From the NCBI RefSeq assembly GCF_004011835.1, contig NZ_RKLN01000001.1:930001-994000 (forward strand): a stretch of DNA of 64,000 nucleotides, in the 5' to 3' direction. This stretch comes from Rhodococcus spongiicola (GTDB lineage Bacteria > Actinomycetota > Actinomycetes > Mycobacteriales > Mycobacteriaceae). Every line of letters begins with the position of its first letter. Within the stretch, counting starts at the first letter, position 1. Below are positions 29,647 to 37,167 of the stretch, in pieces. The translations under genes and the position numbers were made by a program. Below the pieces are notes generated by a model that did not search any database, had not been told where the DNA came from, and saw only the letters and a program-made list of their open reading frames with translations.

Positions 29647-31029
29647 TCACACAGGCGAGTGACGCAACCAGCCCTGCCGATGTTCGATCTCGGCCGCCAC
29701 CGCGAGCACAGTCCGCTCCCCGCCGGGCGGCGCGACGATCTGCACCGCCAGCGGTGTCCGGGACGCGGAGTGCATACCGACCGGAACGCTTGCTGCCGGC
29801 CAGCCGAGAACGTTCCACATCGCACTGAACGGCGCATACCGGACGTTTGCGACAACGTTGGACAGCCAGGACTTCTCGCTCCACGAAAGTGCCGCGACCG
29901 GGGGCTGCGCGAGAGACGGCGTCACCACGACGTCGTAGGCCGAGAAGAACGACCGCATCTTGGCCTCGATGCGGTCCACCTGCGACTGCCGCACCAGCCC
30001 TGCCCGTTTGATCATCCGACCGACCGCGGCGTGCCTGCGGGTGCGTCGTTGCAGCAGGGCCGGATCGAGTTCGGCAGCGTCGTCTGCGGTCCCGGCCATC
30101 CAGCGCGCGAACGCCGCCGTCATGTTGGGCGGATACGGCACCCGCGTCTGCGACGTACGGTGCCCGGCCTCGGCGAGCAGCGCCGCAGTTTTCTCGACGC
30201 CGCTCGCCCACTGGCCGTCGACCCGCAAGATCGGCGACGGCGCGTTGACAGCCACGCCGACCCGCAGCGGCCGCGACTGAGGGATCCGACCGAGGTCGGG
30301 CTCGTCGGCCAGCACCGAGAGCATCAGGGCCGCGTCCTCGACGGTCGACGCGATCGGCCCGTTCTCCGACATCCCGAACCACGAGTGCTCGCCCAGCTCG
30401 GACGGCACAACACCGCGCCCGGGCTTGATGCCGAAGACACCACATGCGGCCGACGGAATCCTGATCGAACCCATGCCGTCAGCGGCCAACGCGATCGGCA
30501 CCATGCCGGCAGCGACGGCGGCGGCGGAACCACCGGACGATCCTCCGGGCACACGGTCCGGGTTCCACGGATTGCGGGTGATCACACCCGGCGAGTCGAC
30601 GGCACCCCACACGCAGAGTTCCGGGACTGCGGTCAAACCGACCGGGATGGCGCCGGCCGCCCGCAACCTGGCGACGGTCGGATGGTCGCTCGCGGACGGG
30701 TTCGGATCCGTCGCAACCGAACCGTCACGCATGGGTTCGCCCTGAACCTGAACATTGTCCTTGATCGCGACGGGAACCCCGGCGAGGGGCAGGCTCGAGA
30801 GGTCGGGGCGGCCGGCGAGCGCCTCGGCTTCAGCCCGGGCCCGCTCCCTCAGCACGCGCACGAACGCGTGGATCCTCGAATCACGCTGTTCGATGCGGGC
30901 GAGGGCATCGTCGACGGCAGCGACCGGAGACAGCGCCCCGGCACGCACTCGACTGGCGATGGAAACGGCAGTGAACTCGTCGACTGTGGACTTCTCAGCA
31001 GTAGGCCCCTCGGCACCCGGATCTCGCAC
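29647..31029 (-). CDS. Amidase-signature hydrolase
   Basis: A 460-residue amidase of the Ser-Ser-Lys class. Catalytic Lys90 is in VAIKDNV, the cis-Ser is in the glycine-rich PGGSSGGSAAA (161-171), and the nucleophile Ser188 is in GMGSIRIPSA. These enzymes hydrolyse amides in the cytoplasm; relatives include GatA, but no gatB/gatC neighbour is present and the C-terminal part is that of a stand-alone amidase. The start is GTG 31029; a CATACT -10 box six bases upstream suggests leaderless translation. Divergent from the kinase across 95 bases that hold a perfect palindrome. Confidence 0.9.
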   Translation of the reverse strand: MRDPGAEGPTAEKSTVDEFTAVSIASRVRAGALSPVAAVDDALARIEQRDSRIHAFVRVLRERARAEAEALAGRPDLSSLPLAGVPVAIKDNVQVQGEPMRDGSVATDPNPSASDHPTVARLRAAGAIPVGLTAVPELCVWGAVDSPGVITRNPWNPDRVPGGSSGGSAAAVAAGMVPIALAADGMGSIRIPSAACGVFGIKPGRGVVPSELGEHSWFGMSENGPIASTVEDAALMLSVLADEPDLGRIPQSRPLRVGVAVNAPSPILRVDGQWASGVEKTAALLAEAGHRTSQTRVPYPPNMTAAFARWMAGTADDAAELDPALLQRRTRRHAAVGRMIKRAGLVRQSQVDRIEAKMRSFFSAYDVVVTPSLAQPPVAALSWSEKSWLSNVVANVRYAPFSAMWNVLGWPAASVPVGMHSASRTPLAVQIVAPPGGERTVLAVAAEIEHRQGWLRHSPV

Positions 31030-31067: not shown

Positions 31068-31079
31068 ACCCCTAGGGGT
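31068..31079. promoter_or_regulatory. Perfect 12-bp palindrome between amidase and kinase genes
   Basis: ACCCCTAGGGGT, in the context GTACCCCTAGGGGTGA, lies between the divergent starts (31029 and 31125). It sits about 40 bases upstream of the amidase start. The TACCCC...GGGGT form recalls operators of CsoR-type metal sensors, but no such regulator is in the window. Confidence 0.5.
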
Positions 31080-31124
31080 GAGTTGGCCCCACCTTGCCGC
31101 ACTCCCCATCTTCGGACGTGACGT

Positions 31125-33407
31125 GTGATGGACGGCACAACCGCATCGACCCCGACCGCCGCCTCGACGATCGACGGCGGGCCGCCGCCGGATCTCGGCG
31201 CGCGAACGGTGTCCTTCCTCGCCGACGTCGTCGCCCGGTTCGCCGACCGGTGGGCGGCGGCCGACGACCCCCCGCAGATCGAATCGTTCCTGCCAGGTGG
31301 GATGCCCGTCCGCGATGCGCTGCGCCGTGCCGCAATCGTCGAGCTGATCAAGGTGGATCTCGAGTACCGACTACTGCATGCGAACCGACCGAAACCGCTC
31401 TCGGAGTACCGCGCCGAGTTCCCCGAACTGCGGTCGAAGCCGCTTCCGGTAGACCTCATCTACGAGGACTTCCACCTACGCCGTCGCGGCGGTCACGCCG
31501 TCGACGCCGAAGCGTACGTGCGGGAGTTCCCCGAGAACGCGGAGCAGGTGACGGCCCTGCTCGCGCCCGACGACTACCGCAGCACCCTGGTTGCACAACC
31601 GGGCGCACAGCGGGCCCTCGAGCAGGTCAACGTCGGCGACCGGGTCGACGACTTCGACCTGCTCACCGAGCTGGGCCGCGGATCGTTCGCACGGGTGTTC
31701 CTCGCCAGGCAGCGGTCGATGCAGCGGATTGTCGCCGTGAAGGTCTCGCACGACCACGGCACCGAACCGCAGACCCTGGCCCAACTCGACCACGACTACA
31801 TCGTCCGGGTGTTCGACCAGCGACTACTGCCCGATCGCGAACTGAAGCTGCTGTACATGCAGTACGTGCCGGGTGGCACCCTGCTCGACGTCCTGCGCCG
31901 CGTTCGCGAGCATCCCGCCGATCCGGAGCATCCCCGAACCGGTCAGCTTCTGCTCGACTCGATCGACGCTGTCCTGGAACGTAAGGGCGAGATCCGGCCG
32001 AGCGATTCGAGTGTGCGCGCCGAGATAGCGGGGCTCAGCTGGCCCGAAACGGTCGCGTGGCTGGGCCGTCGTCTCGCCGACGCCCTCGAGTACGCCGACC
32101 AGCACGGCGTCCTGCATCGCGACATCAAACCCGCGAACGTCCTGTTGACGTCGGAGGGCGTTCCCAAGCTGGCGGACTTCAACATCAGCTTCAGCGACCG
32201 TGTCACAGGGACCAGTCCAGTCGCGTACTTCGGTGGATCCCTGGCTTACATGTCGCCCGAGCAACTCGAGGCCTGCCACCCGGATCTGTCCGGCACGGCC
32301 ACCGACCTCGACGCCCGGAGCGACATCTACGCGCTCGGGGTGATGTTGTGGGAACTGCTGACCGGGCGGCGTCCGTTCGCGGACGAACGCGACGCCGGCG
32401 AATCAGCGACATCGCTCGAACGCATGCTGGCGCTGCGACGACACGAGATCGATACGCGGTTCCAGGAGGATCTGCCCGACGACTGCCCTGCTGCGCTGCG
32501 CCGCGTTCTACTGACGTGCCTGGCACCGAATCCCGAGGATCGCTGGTCGACGGGTGCGGAACTGGCGCAGCAGTTGGATCTGTGCCTCGATGCTCGGGCC
32601 CGTGACCTCGTCGACCCACCACCGCACAGCTGGCGACACCGTCTGTTGCCGTGGATGATTCCGATCGTCGCACTCGGTGTGGGTGTTCCGAACACCCTCG
32701 CGGCGATCTACAACTACAACCACAACCAGACGCTGATCATCAATGAGCTGTCTGCCGATGCACAGCAGCGATTCGTCGAGATCTCGCAGGTGATCAACAG
32801 CATCGTGTTCCCGCTCGGGTTCGTGTTGATCGTGTACTTCTGCCGTTACGTCATCTACGTGCCCTTGGGTCTCCGGAGGGGAAGAAGCTACGACGCTGCC
32901 ACCCTCTCTCGTGCCCGCGCCGACACCCTGCTGATGGGTGACCGGATCGTCGCAGTGGTGTTCGCGCTGTGGCTCATCGCGGGAATCGCCTTTCCGGTCA
33001 TGCTGCAGATCGCCGCCGGGGCCCTTCCACAGGGCGTCTATTTGCACTTCCTGGGTTCGCAGATCGTGTGTGGGGCGATCGCGGTCGCATACCCGTTCTT
33101 CCTGGTCACGTTCTACGCTGTGCGGTGCCTGTATCCATCGCTGTTGCCTCACGGCATCACCAGCAGCAGCGACGAGCGCCGGCTACGAGGTCTCGACCGC
33201 CGCAGCACCATGTACCTCGCGGTGGCCGCGTCGGTGCCGTTGGTCGGGGTCGCCGGGGCGACGTTCCTGCCTCCCGACGAGATCTCTTCCGTCATAGTCG
33301 CGGTGCGAGTGCTGTGCGTCGGCGGCGTGGTCGCGTTCGTGTTCGTGTACTGGCTCTTCCGCCTGCTCGAGGAGGACCTCCGGGCGCTCGAGCGCGTCGT
33401 GTCGTAG
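31125..33407 (+). CDS. Membrane Ser/Thr protein kinase with polytopic C-terminus
   Basis: A 760-residue protein. Residues 30-150 hold two helical blocks (FLPGGMPVRDALRRAAIVELIKVDLEYR; AYVREFPENAEQV) like the N-terminal regions of planctomycete-type kinases. The kinase domain is 174-490: Gly loop GRGSFARV (184-191), Lys206, catalytic HRDIKPANV with Asp333, metal-binding DFN (351-353) where DFG is usual, and SPEQ at 377-380. Then come about six membrane helices (about 508-745) and a short tail. Actinobacterial Pkn kinases normally have one helix and a sensor outside. The start may be GTG 31125 or ATG 31128; no ribosome site is clear. Confidence 0.85.
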   Translation: MMDGTTASTPTAASTIDGGPPPDLGARTVSFLADVVARFADRWAAADDPPQIESFLPGGMPVRDALRRAAIVELIKVDLEYRLLHANRPKPLSEYRAEFPELRSKPLPVDLIYEDFHLRRRGGHAVDAEAYVREFPENAEQVTALLAPDDYRSTLVAQPGAQRALEQVNVGDRVDDFDLLTELGRGSFARVFLARQRSMQRIVAVKVSHDHGTEPQTLAQLDHDYIVRVFDQRLLPDRELKLLYMQYVPGGTLLDVLRRVREHPADPEHPRTGQLLLDSIDAVLERKGEIRPSDSSVRAEIAGLSWPETVAWLGRRLADALEYADQHGVLHRDIKPANVLLTSEGVPKLADFNISFSDRVTGTSPVAYFGGSLAYMSPEQLEACHPDLSGTATDLDARSDIYALGVMLWELLTGRRPFADERDAGESATSLERMLALRRHEIDTRFQEDLPDDCPAALRRVLLTCLAPNPEDRWSTGAELAQQLDLCLDARARDLVDPPPHSWRHRLLPWMIPIVALGVGVPNTLAAIYNYNHNQTLIINELSADAQQRFVEISQVINSIVFPLGFVLIVYFCRYVIYVPLGLRRGRSYDAATLSRARADTLLMGDRIVAVVFALWLIAGIAFPVMLQIAAGALPQGVYLHFLGSQIVCGAIAVAYPFFLVTFYAVRCLYPSLLPHGITSSSDERRLRGLDRRSTMYLAVAASVPLVGVAGATFLPPDEISSVIVAVRVLCVGGVVAFVFVYWLFRLLEEDLRALERVVS

Positions 33408-33412
33408 GGGCT

Positions 33413-34015
33413 TCAGCTGTTCCCGAAGAGAGAACTCGGCGCTGCGGGAAACAGCCGCTCGACCGCGGTGACGATAGCTGCTCGACGGTCTGCCAGGAAC
33501 TGCTCACGCGCACCGCTTTCGACGGACGTCAGGCCTGGTTGGTCGGCCCAGGCCATCGCCAGCTGGTTGACGAACACGAGGATGTCGAGCGGGTCCCACG
33601 AAGGATCGAGCAGTCCTTCCCGCTGCGCGCGGCGAAGCTTTTCCGCCTTGCGGCTGACCGTGTCTCGAGCGGCGCCATCAGAGCCGGTGTCGGCGAATTC
33701 GAGCTGCCCCCAACGCATCAGACGTAGGTTGTCGGGGTTGGCGACGAAGTAGTCGTGGACTCGTCCGGCGTAGCCGGGCAGATCAGCGGGATCCATCTGC
33801 GTTGCTTCGGCGACCGCGTCGAGTTCACGGGCGGCGACGAACCCATAGAGCTCTTCTTTGCTGCGAAAGTACGCGTAGACCCGCTCCTTACTGGTCCTGG
33901 CAGACTTCGCGATCCGATCGATGCGCGCACCGGCAACCCCGTGTCGCGCGAATTCGGCGGTGGCCGCTTCGACGATGCGGCCACGGGTCGAATCGGTACG
34001 AGGCGAAGGCGACAC
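33413..34015 (-). CDS. TetR-family repressor of the aldo-keto reductase locus
   Basis: A 200-residue TetR regulator. The N-terminal helix-turn-helix spans about 12-55 (RIVEAATAEFARHGVAGARIDRIAKSA, then SKERVYAYFRSKEELYGFV), followed by an all-helical ligand domain. It lies divergent from an aldo-keto reductase gene, and two near-identical 17-bp palindromes sit between the starts, one close to each. This is the classic local-repressor layout. The ligand is unknown, probably an aldehyde or ketone handled by the reductase. GTG start at 34015. The end lies six bases from the kinase stop on the other strand. Confidence 0.9.
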   Translation of the reverse strand: MSPSPRTDSTRGRIVEAATAEFARHGVAGARIDRIAKSARTSKERVYAYFRSKEELYGFVAARELDAVAEATQMDPADLPGYAGRVHDYFVANPDNLRLMRWGQLEFADTGSDGAARDTVSRKAEKLRRAQREGLLDPSWDPLDILVFVNQLAMAWADQPGLTSVESGAREQFLADRRAAIVTAVERLFPAAPSSLFGNS

Positions 34016-34030
34016 CCGGCCACCCTACCA

Positions 34031-34047
34031 AGCCAAACTAGTTGGTT
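34031..34047 (-). promoter_or_regulatory. TetR operator, copy 1
   Basis: On the minus strand AACCAACTAGTTTGGCT, an imperfect inverted repeat 16 bases ahead of the tetR start. It matches the copy at 34078 at 14 of 17 positions, including AACCAA and AGTTTGG at the same spacing. Confidence 0.65.
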
Positions 34048-34077
34048 TGACCGAGTCAGCAAGCGCGTGTAGCGTCG

Positions 34078-34094
34078 AACCAAACAGTTTGGTT
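34078..34094 (+). promoter_or_regulatory. TetR operator, copy 2
   Basis: AACCAAACAGTTTGGTT, a perfect inverted repeat (arms AACCAAAC/GTTTGGTT, one central base), 24 bases ahead of the aldo-keto reductase start. Pair with copy 1. Confidence 0.75.
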
Positions 34095-34117
34095 TGACTC
34101 TGAGAGAGGGCTTGTTC

Positions 34118-35071
34118 ATGCAGCACAGGGCATTGGGAACGCAAGGACTGACCGTCTCGGCGATAGGTTACGGATCGATGGGCACCGTGGTCGGATACGG
34201 AGCCAGCGACGACACCGAATCGGTCGCCGCGATCCGCCGTGCACACGACCTTGGCGTGACCTTCTTCGACACCGCCGAGATGTACGGCTGGGGAGAAGGC
34301 GAGAAACTACTCGGCCGCGCGGTGGCACCGTTTCGCCATGAGGTGGTGATCGCCACCAAGTTCGGATTCACCCCCCGCTTCGGCACCGACTCGCGCCCCG
34401 AGCACATCCGCGAGGTGGTCGACGCCAGCCTGCGCAACCTGGGAGTCGACAACATCGACCTGCTCTATCAGCACAGAGTCGACCCCGCCGTGCCGATCGA
34501 GGACGTCGTCGCGACCATGGCCGAGTTCGTCGACGTCGGCAAGGTGAAGTACCTCGGCCTTTCCGAGGCGACACCCGAGGTCATCCGCAAAGCCCATGCC
34601 GTGCACCCGATCTCAGCGCTGCAAACCGAGTATTCGATCTTTGCCCCGGACGCCGAACCACTGTTCCCACTATTGGAAGAGCTCGGAATCGGGTTCGTCG
34701 CCTACTCCCCGCTGGCGCGCGGATTCCTCACCGACACAGCGAAGCCGGCCCACGACTACGATCCGACCGACTTCCGTACCCTCATGCCCTGGTGGAACGC
34801 CGACAACTACGACGCCAACGCGCACATCATCGGTCAGCTCACCGAACTCGCCCACGCCAAAGGCATCACTGTCTCGCAGCTGGCGCTGGCCTGGACTCTC
34901 GCGCAACGCGACAACATCGTCCCGATTCCAGGCTCACGCAACCCCGACCGCGTCGCTCGAAATGTCGCAGCCAGCGACATCGCGCTCACCACCGAGGATC
35001 TCGAGCGCATCGCCGCCATCGCTCCCGCCGGCGGCCAGGGGGGCCGCGGCACCCCCTCGCCATGGCTATAG
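34118..35071 (+). CDS. Aldo-keto reductase
   Basis: A 317-residue NADPH-dependent (beta/alpha)8 aldo-keto reductase. The catalytic tetrad is visible: Asp51 (FFDTAEMYG), Tyr56, Lys81 (ATKFGF) and His119 (LLYQHRVDP). The late block PIPGSRNPDRVARNVAA binds the NADPH phosphate. It looks like the AKR13/YajO-like group acting on aldehydes or ketones, but the substrate is not readable. ATG 34118 follows GAGAGAGGG; the upstream ATG at 34094 lies inside the operator and is rejected. Regulated by the divergent TetR, by inference. Confidence 0.92.
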   Translation: MQHRALGTQGLTVSAIGYGSMGTVVGYGASDDTESVAAIRRAHDLGVTFFDTAEMYGWGEGEKLLGRAVAPFRHEVVIATKFGFTPRFGTDSRPEHIREVVDASLRNLGVDNIDLLYQHRVDPAVPIEDVVATMAEFVDVGKVKYLGLSEATPEVIRKAHAVHPISALQTEYSIFAPDAEPLFPLLEELGIGFVAYSPLARGFLTDTAKPAHDYDPTDFRTLMPWWNADNYDANAHIIGQLTELAHAKGITVSQLALAWTLAQRDNIVPIPGSRNPDRVARNVAASDIALTTEDLERIAAIAPAGGQGGRGTPSPWL

Positions 35072-35146
35072 GGGGCAGCCGCCGTGTGCAGACCGATGCA
35101 CTGAGATGCCGCGACCCGCGCTTTCTCCTTACTCCCACCACCTGAA

Positions 35147-36523
35147 TCAGACCACGATGGCCAGAAGCATCGCCGATGCGATCAGCATGTCCGGCCCGCG
35201 TAGCTTCTGCCGGATCAGGTCGACAGGAAGTTGTCCTACTCCTGTTTCGAGGATGAGCCCGTCGTAGGCGGTCGGTAGCCGGGTGCGCAGACGGTACGCC
35301 GCAAGGCACGCACCGCCCGCGGCGATCAATGTAGGGGCGGCAGTCCAACCCACGAACGGTGCCGTCGTCGCAGTCACCGCCGCTGCTGCACACGCCGGGA
35401 CCACCATCATCGGACGGTGCAGTGCCCGGTCGGCCATGCCGAGCATCCCCAACAGCTCTCGGCTGTTGGACATCTCTCGAAACCCGGTGCTGAACACCAC
35501 CGCGGTAATGAACACCGCCGCGAGTTGCGTCCACGCCGCTGCAATTGGCGAGACCGCGCCGCCGACCGTCCAGGTGGCAGCAACAACCACGCCGACAATG
35601 GCGAAGGTTGACGGTCGGCGCAGGTGCCGAAGGAGATCCGAGCGGATCAGCGCGCGCGTACGTCTGCGAGGCAGCGATCGAGAGGGACAGCGAGCGACCC
35701 GTCGCCACGCATTGTCGTCGGCTACGCCCGTCAGAATCGATAGATCCAAGCCGATGATCGAGACCCGCATCGCCACTGCGATGTCGGCTCCCTCGTTCAG
35801 ATCGGCGGCTGTGATCCGCCTGCATACACACAGCGCTGCGATCACGAGCGGGGCCGTCAGGGCCGAGAGGACAACGACTGGAGTCCATGTCGTGAAAACC
35901 GGGACCACGGCGCCGGCAACCGCAGCCACCACCGCAGCAACGCCTACCGCCGAGAACAGGATCCGCACGCTCGAGACTATCGGGGCTGGAAGCACTTTGC
36001 CCTGTTCGAGTACGGCGACGGCGGCAACGCCCGCACAGCCGGCGGCGGCACCAGCTGTCAGGGGTGCCCACTGCTCGACAGCCCCAGCGAACGCTGCCAA
36101 CCGACCGCCGGCCGCCCCTGCCACGGCGGCACCCATGAGCGTTACGAGAAGTCTCGGCCGTAGCAGCGTGGCGCGGTCGATTGGTGTCGACAACACCCAA
36201 AAGGTGCATTCGGGGCTGGCGGTCAGGGGTCCGATGGCACGTGCCGTAGACCCAACCACCACCATCGCGGCGGCGGCAACCGCCCACGCCCACGTGGGGT
36301 TCCACCCCTGGACGGTCGGCAACAGCCCCGAGTCCAACAGCGCGGTCGCAGGTCTGGTCGCCAGCCACCACACGGTTCCGACGACGACATACGTTCCGAG
36401 TGCCGCGACAACAATTGCGCCGACTCGGTCAGCGCCGGGGGCGTTGGAGCGAGCCAACCGACGCTGCATCGCTCGGATGGTACGCGCGGACGGAACGGTC
36501 GAGGCGGGGCTGATCAACGCCAT
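35147..36523 (-). CDS. DUF6297-type membrane protein, probable ABC permease
   Basis: A 458-residue polytopic protein with about twelve hydrophobic segments, many Ala/Val-rich (AIVVAALGTYVVVGTVWWLA; AWAVAAAAMVVVGSTARAIG). The start overlaps the end of an ABC ATPase gene by ten bases, so it is probably its membrane partner; the middle loop RTRALIRSDLLRHLRRPSTF looks like a coupling region. I recall this as the DUF6297 family of actinobacterial exporters of unknown cargo. No periplasmic binding protein is present, so export is more likely than import. ATG 36523. Confidence 0.7.
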   Translation of the reverse strand: MALISPASTVPSARTIRAMQRRLARSNAPGADRVGAIVVAALGTYVVVGTVWWLATRPATALLDSGLLPTVQGWNPTWAWAVAAAAMVVVGSTARAIGPLTASPECTFWVLSTPIDRATLLRPRLLVTLMGAAVAGAAGGRLAAFAGAVEQWAPLTAGAAAGCAGVAAVAVLEQGKVLPAPIVSSVRILFSAVGVAAVVAAVAGAVVPVFTTWTPVVVLSALTAPLVIAALCVCRRITAADLNEGADIAVAMRVSIIGLDLSILTGVADDNAWRRVARCPSRSLPRRRTRALIRSDLLRHLRRPSTFAIVGVVVAATWTVGGAVSPIAAAWTQLAAVFITAVVFSTGFREMSNSRELLGMLGMADRALHRPMMVVPACAAAAVTATTAPFVGWTAAPTLIAAGGACLAAYRLRTRLPTAYDGLILETGVGQLPVDLIRQKLRGPDMLIASAMLLAIVV

Positions 36524-37167
36524 GAGTCACCGTCCACCGTGTCGTCGGCGACCGCCGAGACCAGGGTCGAGTCGTGCGAGACGACCAGGACCGCGGTCCC
36601 GAGCTCCTTCTCGGCGTTGATGCGGGTAACGAGCCACGCTCGCCCGGCCGCATCGAGGTGTTGTTCGGGCTCGTCGAGCACCAGCAGCCGCCGAGGCCTG
36701 ACAAAGGCCGATGCCACCGCGAGGCGGCGGCGTTGGCCGCTGGACAGTGTCACCGGGAGTTGGTCCGCGGCCCCTGAGAGCCCGACGTCGGCCAGTGTCT
36801 GCGTCGCCAGTTCGTACGGTTCAGGCATGCCGTGGGCGGTCGCGACGAGTTGCAGGTGCTCGTGCGCGGTCAAGTGAGCGAATGTGGCCACGTCTCCGAC
36901 TACAGCAGCCACCGCGGACCGGAATGCGGGTGAGGATTCGTCGACAACGTCACCGTCGACACTGATTGTGCCGCCGTCGAGTCGGTCGACGCCGATCACG
37001 CAGCGGAGCAACGTGGACTTGCCGACACCGTTCGCGCCGACGATCGCGCAACACCGGCCGGCCGTGACATCGAAGGTGACGGCGGAGAACACGAGCTGAT
37101 CGCCGAAATGGCGCTCGGCATCGCGTACGGACAAGACACGGCCGTCCGGCTGAGAAGGGCTGAGCAT
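36514..37167 (-). CDS. ABC transporter ATP-binding protein
   Basis: A 217-residue ATPase with Walker A GANGVGKS (about 44-51), the ABC signature LSSGQRRRLAVA, Walker B LLVLDEPEQHLD and the switch His in VVSHDS. It has the short single-domain form seen in exporter systems with unusual permeases. It sits between a DUF6412-type small membrane protein and the DUF6297 permease, with 56 bases and a 10-base overlap respectively. Substrate unknown. ATG 37167. Confidence 0.93.
   Translation of the reverse strand: MLSPSQPDGRVLSVRDAERHFGDQLVFSAVTFDVTAGRCCAIVGANGVGKSTLLRCVIGVDRLDGGTISVDGDVVDESSPAFRSAVAAVVGDVATFAHLTAHEHLQLVATAHGMPEPYELATQTLADVGLSGAADQLPVTLSSGQRRRLAVASAFVRPRRLLVLDEPEQHLDAAGRAWLVTRINAEKELGTAVLVVSHDSTLVSAVADDTVDGDSWR

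Follow-up and report, generated by a model that had tools for sequence, protein, structure and literature searches.

Does a membrane protein of Rhodococcus spongiicola whose kinase domain carries DFN in place of DFG still act as a kinase, and from where did the lineage acquire it? We addressed this question for a gene within a 64,000-nucleotide stretch of the genome (contig NZ_RKLN01000001.1, positions 930,001 to 994,000), here called the window, whose own numbering is used for all coordinates. The gene extends from 31125 to 33407 on the + strand, as do all features described below unless stated otherwise, and it is complete, with 760 codons and a product of 759 to 760 amino acids. An in-frame TGA is present at 31119 and only CGT separates it from the GTG at 31125; translation starts at this GTG or at the ATG at 31128, with the ATG more likely, and orthologues begin at the same start and conserve the initial VMDG. 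The open reading frame is real and did not arise by chance, since orthologues with 80 to 96% identity occur throughout the genus and relatives in the Planctomycetota, mostly 40 to 47% identical, are nearly full length. The orthologues were found in 11 of the 13 same-genus relatives sampled. Named records with an orthologue include those of Rhodococcus xishaensis (L021, 96% identity) and Prescottella equi DSM 20307 (L023).

The protein begins with an N-terminal helical module (31206 to 31568) made of two EFPE-type blocks, with the EFPE motifs at residues 98 to 101 and 134 to 137 and the helices visible in an AlphaFold model. In four members (L012 and L029 to L031) this module has been naturally lost and the kinase and tail have been retained. 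The module is followed by a protein kinase domain with a PknB-like fold (residues 172 to 490, by the bounds of a family HMM; 31638 to 32594), which matched the Pfam profile PF00069 (Pkinase) with an E value of 1.3e-36 and 126.8 bits versus a gathering score of 31.7. The beta-3 lysine of the VAVK motif is Lys206 (31740 to 31742), HRD occupies residues 331 to 333 (32115 to 32123), and DFN replaces DFG at residues 351 to 353 (32175 to 32183). The original prediction had described two EFPE blocks, intact VAVK and HRD motifs, DFN at 351 to 353, and about six membrane helices, and all of these were confirmed by the sequence, Pfam, hydropathy, and structural models.

We then considered whether the loss of the DFG glycine is peculiar to this copy. 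Among 74 distinct family members with K206, D333, and D351 intact, 72 carried DFN (56 actinobacterial and 16 planctomycete), and the other two, both planctomycete, carried DFS and DFI. DFG was present in all 24 canonical actinobacterial kinases sampled and in 11 of 12 other, generic planctomycete kinases. The surrounding LADFNIS is nearly invariant in the subfamily, and the window kinase fits the pattern LADFN[IV]S. By this residue tally, DFN is a family signature across two phyla and no quirk of the window copy. A literature search found no paper on a DFN six-helix subfamily, and the subfamily has no name in the libraries searched. What appears to be new here is an unnamed kinase subfamily, of a kind already known, that spans two phyla and has an altered canonical motif.

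A kinase with this motif might be inactive. The pseudokinase or scaffold explanation holds that DFN blocks proper handling of Mg and ATP, leaving the protein to signal solely through binding or its conformation. It draws on the plant RLCK-VIII proteins MAZ and CARK7, which carry DFN and are reported to be inactive, although a MAZ variant with DFG restored was inactive as well, so DFN has not been demonstrated to be the cause (PMC11981891). From general kinase knowledge, a glycine-to-asparagine change would also restrict the backbone where the activation loop begins. Against this, K206, E214, the HRD aspartate, N338, and D351 have been kept in nearly all members in two phyla. The window kinase itself retains K206, the alpha-C glutamate E214, H331-R332-D333, N338, D351, the SPE motif, and E379. 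The three residues by which Hanks-type kinases are defined, the beta-3 lysine, the HRD aspartate, and the metal-binding aspartate, are thus present as K206, D333, and D351; the DFG glycine, which is typical of Hanks-type kinases and lies outside the catalytic-triad definition, is the residue that is missing. Pseudokinases are defined by loss of the lysine, the HRD aspartate, or the DFG aspartate, and all three are retained. The loop between beta-3 and alpha-C is short in the alignment, with 7 residues from K206 to E214 versus 18 in PknB, which may keep alpha-C in its inward position.

A contrast to these intact members is found within the family itself. In many Nocardia genomes (L172, 3966 to 9097, and L137 to L161), including N. 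farcinica NCTC11134, a tandem paralogue lies beside the intact kinase; the genus of G091 was assigned to Nocardia on the strength of this arrangement, which the N. farcinica record shares. The paralogues have arginine at the position of K206, the alpha-C glutamate is usually gone, and HRD is often HHD, HQD, or absent. None of the 25 paralogues without K206 carried DFN; 18 had DFA, 4 had DFT, 2 had DFS, and 1 had DFG, although these are not 25 independent observations, since they probably derive from one or a few lineages or events. Paralogues that lost K206 have lost DFN and usually E214 too, which indicates that the asparagine is kept or lost along with the other catalytic features and which runs counter to the pseudokinase explanation for the intact members, an explanation that we consider unlikely. 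The K-to-R, DFN-less paralogue is likely the pseudokinase of the two, judging from these substitutions. The family thus offers a natural test of the role of the DFG glycine, in that intact members retain the asparagine and their lysine-less sister copies lose it. A bolder proposal, which we offer only tentatively, is that the active site has been re-engineered so that catalysis requires the asparagine and that, in Nocardia, the active DFN kinase works as one half of an obligate membrane pair, its partner, a K-to-R, DFA-type pseudokinase, serving to gate or relay the signal. For the window protein, the best reading is that of a probably active Ser/Thr kinase. The suggestion in the original prediction that DFN might still permit activity, as the aspartate is kept, is consistent with the retained D351 and with the indirect evidence, which favors predicted activity.

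The distribution of the subfamily was determined next, with the membrane tail as the query for the Mycobacteriaceae (in the GTDB sense). Relatives were present in 123 of 401 Mycobacteriaceae genomes and in 13 of 31 genera, with at most five matches per genome. Outside this family, sampling at the class, order, and phylum levels gave no reliable match; the two matches that did appear had interrupted frames and E values no better than 3e-4. Strong relatives were found in 19 of 246 Planctomycetota genomes (approximately 8%), most of them 40 to 47% identical and thirteen nearly full length, and below these 19 the matches dropped to the level of generic kinases. Named planctomycete records of the subfamily include L032 and L033. 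These full-length distant relatives bear out the kinship to planctomycete kinases that had been proposed from the sequence of the window. At one locus, three kinase copies (L089, L091, and L092) follow one another in head-to-tail order, with overlaps or near overlaps between them.

A kinase-domain tree of 98 rows, rooted on canonical actinobacterial kinases, was used to examine the direction of descent. All 51 actinobacterial subfamily rows, including the query, formed one clade (100/96) nested among the planctomycete members, and the next branch joined this clade with three planctomycete rows (98/91). The deeper planctomycete forks had moderate support, and some branches were long. In AU tests, placing the actinobacterial members with canonical actinobacterial Pkn kinases was rejected (p-AU 0.0007), and a planctomycete clade excluding the actinobacterial members was rejected more weakly (p-AU 0.024). 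The phylogeny called for in the original prediction therefore places the gene outside ordinary actinobacterial Pkn kinases. The EFPE N-terminal motif was found in 11 of 12 Prescottella rows, in 11 of 18 planctomycete members, and in none of the 24 canonical actinobacterial kinases. The nested tree and this planctomycete-type N terminus together support one transfer from a planctomycete.

We infer that the subfamily arose in the Planctomycetota and was passed, in one old transfer, to an ancestor shared by part of the Mycobacteriaceae, and the distribution, tree, and locus suggest subsequent vertical inheritance with duplications and losses. Because the subfamily is present in 123 of the genomes, spread over 13 genera, and often keeps the same locus, the transfer would predate the genera. 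The GC3 of the kinase gene (0.83, versus 0.82 to 0.83 for its neighbors) gives no sign of foreign base composition, as expected of an old transfer. Thus, the proposal that the gene was acquired from or shared with distant bacteria holds as a planctomycete transfer, but the same distribution and conserved locus argue against a recent acquisition. Wide vertical presence in the order, which had been named as evidence against foreign origin, was observed within the Mycobacteriaceae but not across the order.

Two other histories were weighed against this one. Birth of the subfamily in the Mycobacteriaceae and spread to planctomycetes would fit the greater frequency of actinobacterial members among the sampled genomes and the weakness of some planctomycete forks, but the actinobacterial clade lies among the planctomycete members, which are also the more divergent, the closest outgroup kinases come from planctomycetes, and canonical actinobacterial kinases lack the N-terminal EFPE module; we therefore find such a reversal quite improbable. 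There is likewise a slim chance that a third, unsampled phylum was the true source of both sets of copies. Wide, systematic genome sampling covered Actinomycetota and Planctomycetota, with uneven coverage of other phyla, which leaves room for such a source, yet a scan of contigs from 84,980 species, using peptide patterns of weak conservation, returned only Prescottella/Rhodococcus, two planctomycete metagenome-assembled genomes, and one remote generic kinase, and plasmid records with members came from Rhodococcus, Nocardia, and Paludisphaera and no others. In the plasmid member from Rhodococcus pseudokoreensis (L173, 4707 to 6188), the frame of the tail is broken and no gene is listed. Viral contigs contained generic DFG kinases only, so no phage vehicle was seen.

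Hydropathy, two AlphaFold models (mean pLDDT of 72 and 74, with low confidence in the N-lobe), and loop charges agree on six predicted membrane helices in the C-terminal part of the protein, between residues 507 and 741. These are helix 1 (32643 to 32708), helix 2 (32799 to 32855), helix 3 (32946 to 33002), helix 4 (33051 to 33119), helix 5 (33213 to 33269), and helix 6 (33291 to 33347), the last followed by a cytoplasmic C terminus. Lysine and arginine residues number 6 and 6 in the inner loops and 3 in the C terminus, versus 1, 0, and 0 in the outer loops, a positive-inside pattern, and the predicted topology puts both ends of the protein in the cytoplasm. Helix 1 carries the conserved P522 and N523 and, at its outer end, N530 and N534; the conserved N558 lies just before helix 2, and the conserved G565 lies inside it. 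The asparagines N523, N530, N534, and N558 of this first hairpin are conserved in both phyla and make up a candidate ligand or packing site. Sequence comparison showed the tail to be homologous across Mycobacteriaceae and planctomycete members. Among solved structures, Foldseek gave no match to it at an E value of 0.001 or below, Pfam matches were weak and inconsistent, and the best structural match, none of which stood out, was a designed helical bundle (VIA Z of 10.8, rmsd of 6.4, 169 aligned). An internal triplication of hairpins, suspected from the helix pattern, was rejected at an hhalign probability below 7%.

The surroundings of the gene were compared for possible partners. An amidase gene (PF01425, E value of 1.1e-81; 29647 to 31029, - strand) diverges from the kinase gene in the window and recurs beside it in several other genera. 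Between the two lies a 12-bp perfect palindrome, ACCCCTAGGGGT (31068 to 31079), and in most related species of the genus the shared upstream region keeps this ACCCC-N2-GGGGT repeat, a candidate operator. In several genera the kinase gene occupies the hpt-ftsH interval, often beside the same amidase, and in N. farcinica NCTC11134 it adjoins hpt-tilS. The window differs from most genera in that a TetR regulator, an aldo-keto reductase, and a DUF6297 ABC-type cluster (33413 to 37167) separate the kinase from hpt. The amidase and the TetR regulator are its direct neighbors, with no ECF sigma gene beside it, and neither an ECF sigma nor an FHA-GGDEF partner was found beside the actinobacterial gene at the loci compared. 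Planctomycete kinases have an ECF sigma factor as a neighbor at six loci (five from related genomes) and an FHA-GGDEF protein at five. The kinases adjoining FHA-GGDEF genes (L120 to L123 and L125) mostly lack the N-terminal module. These neighbors are plausible substrates or phosphorylation readers in planctomycetes, and the FHA-GGDEF neighborhood suggests a link between phosphorylation and c-di-GMP.

Taken together, the above-described results are consistent with a Hanks-type Ser/Thr kinase subfamily distinguished by DFN, a short beta-3 to alpha-C loop, a hinge insert, and a C-terminal membrane domain of six helices. Sensing within the membrane, as suggested in the original prediction, is plausible. 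The six-helix domain would most likely read a signal in the membrane or at its outer face, with the conserved asparagines of the first hairpin as the candidate site, and the reading would alter the activity of the kinase domain, predicted to lie on the cytoplasmic side, so that a cytoplasmic effector becomes phosphorylated; in planctomycetes this effector might be the neighboring ECF sigma factor or FHA-GGDEF protein. The whole of this, a catalytically competent DFN kinase of planctomycete origin that arrived by one old transfer and reads signals through six helices, strikes us as reasonably likely. It would represent an old planctomycete-to-actinobacteria transfer of an entire membrane signaling protein, in a subfamily that Rhodococcus (Prescottella) equi and Nocardia farcinica both carry.

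Among known systems, mycobacterial PknB is the best solved-structure match of the window kinase domain and has the catalytic triad in common with it. PknB has a single membrane helix plus PASTA domains. It differs in carrying DFG rather than DFN and, in alignments, in lacking the insert, peculiar to this family, that separates the hinge from the helix preceding the catalytic loop (approximately residues 254 to 308; 31884 to 32048) and is kept in both phyla; the window protein has no PASTA domain and scored 147 bits against the cutoff of 450 for the PknB/Stk1 PASTA class (NCBIfam NF033483). The pseudokinase families ActPs1-3, DYD, and DLHK are likewise membrane-associated actinobacterial kinase-fold proteins and share a Lys-to-Arg change with the Nocardia tandem paralogues, but the window protein, unlike them, retains the lysine, the HRD aspartate, and D351, and no DFN family appears in the consulted passages of the review that describes these bacterial pseudokinases (PMC12599244). 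The plant proteins MAZ and CARK7 have DFN in common with the window protein, yet they form an unrelated plant subfamily (PMC11981891). Planctomycetes have a large repertoire of membrane Ser/Thr kinases, and most of these are single-helix proteins (PMC11032199). The subfamily is a minority among them, the generic kinases being mostly DFG, but some planctomycete kinases are full-length homologues that share the EFPE N terminus, the kinase insert, LADFNIS, and the six-helix tail.
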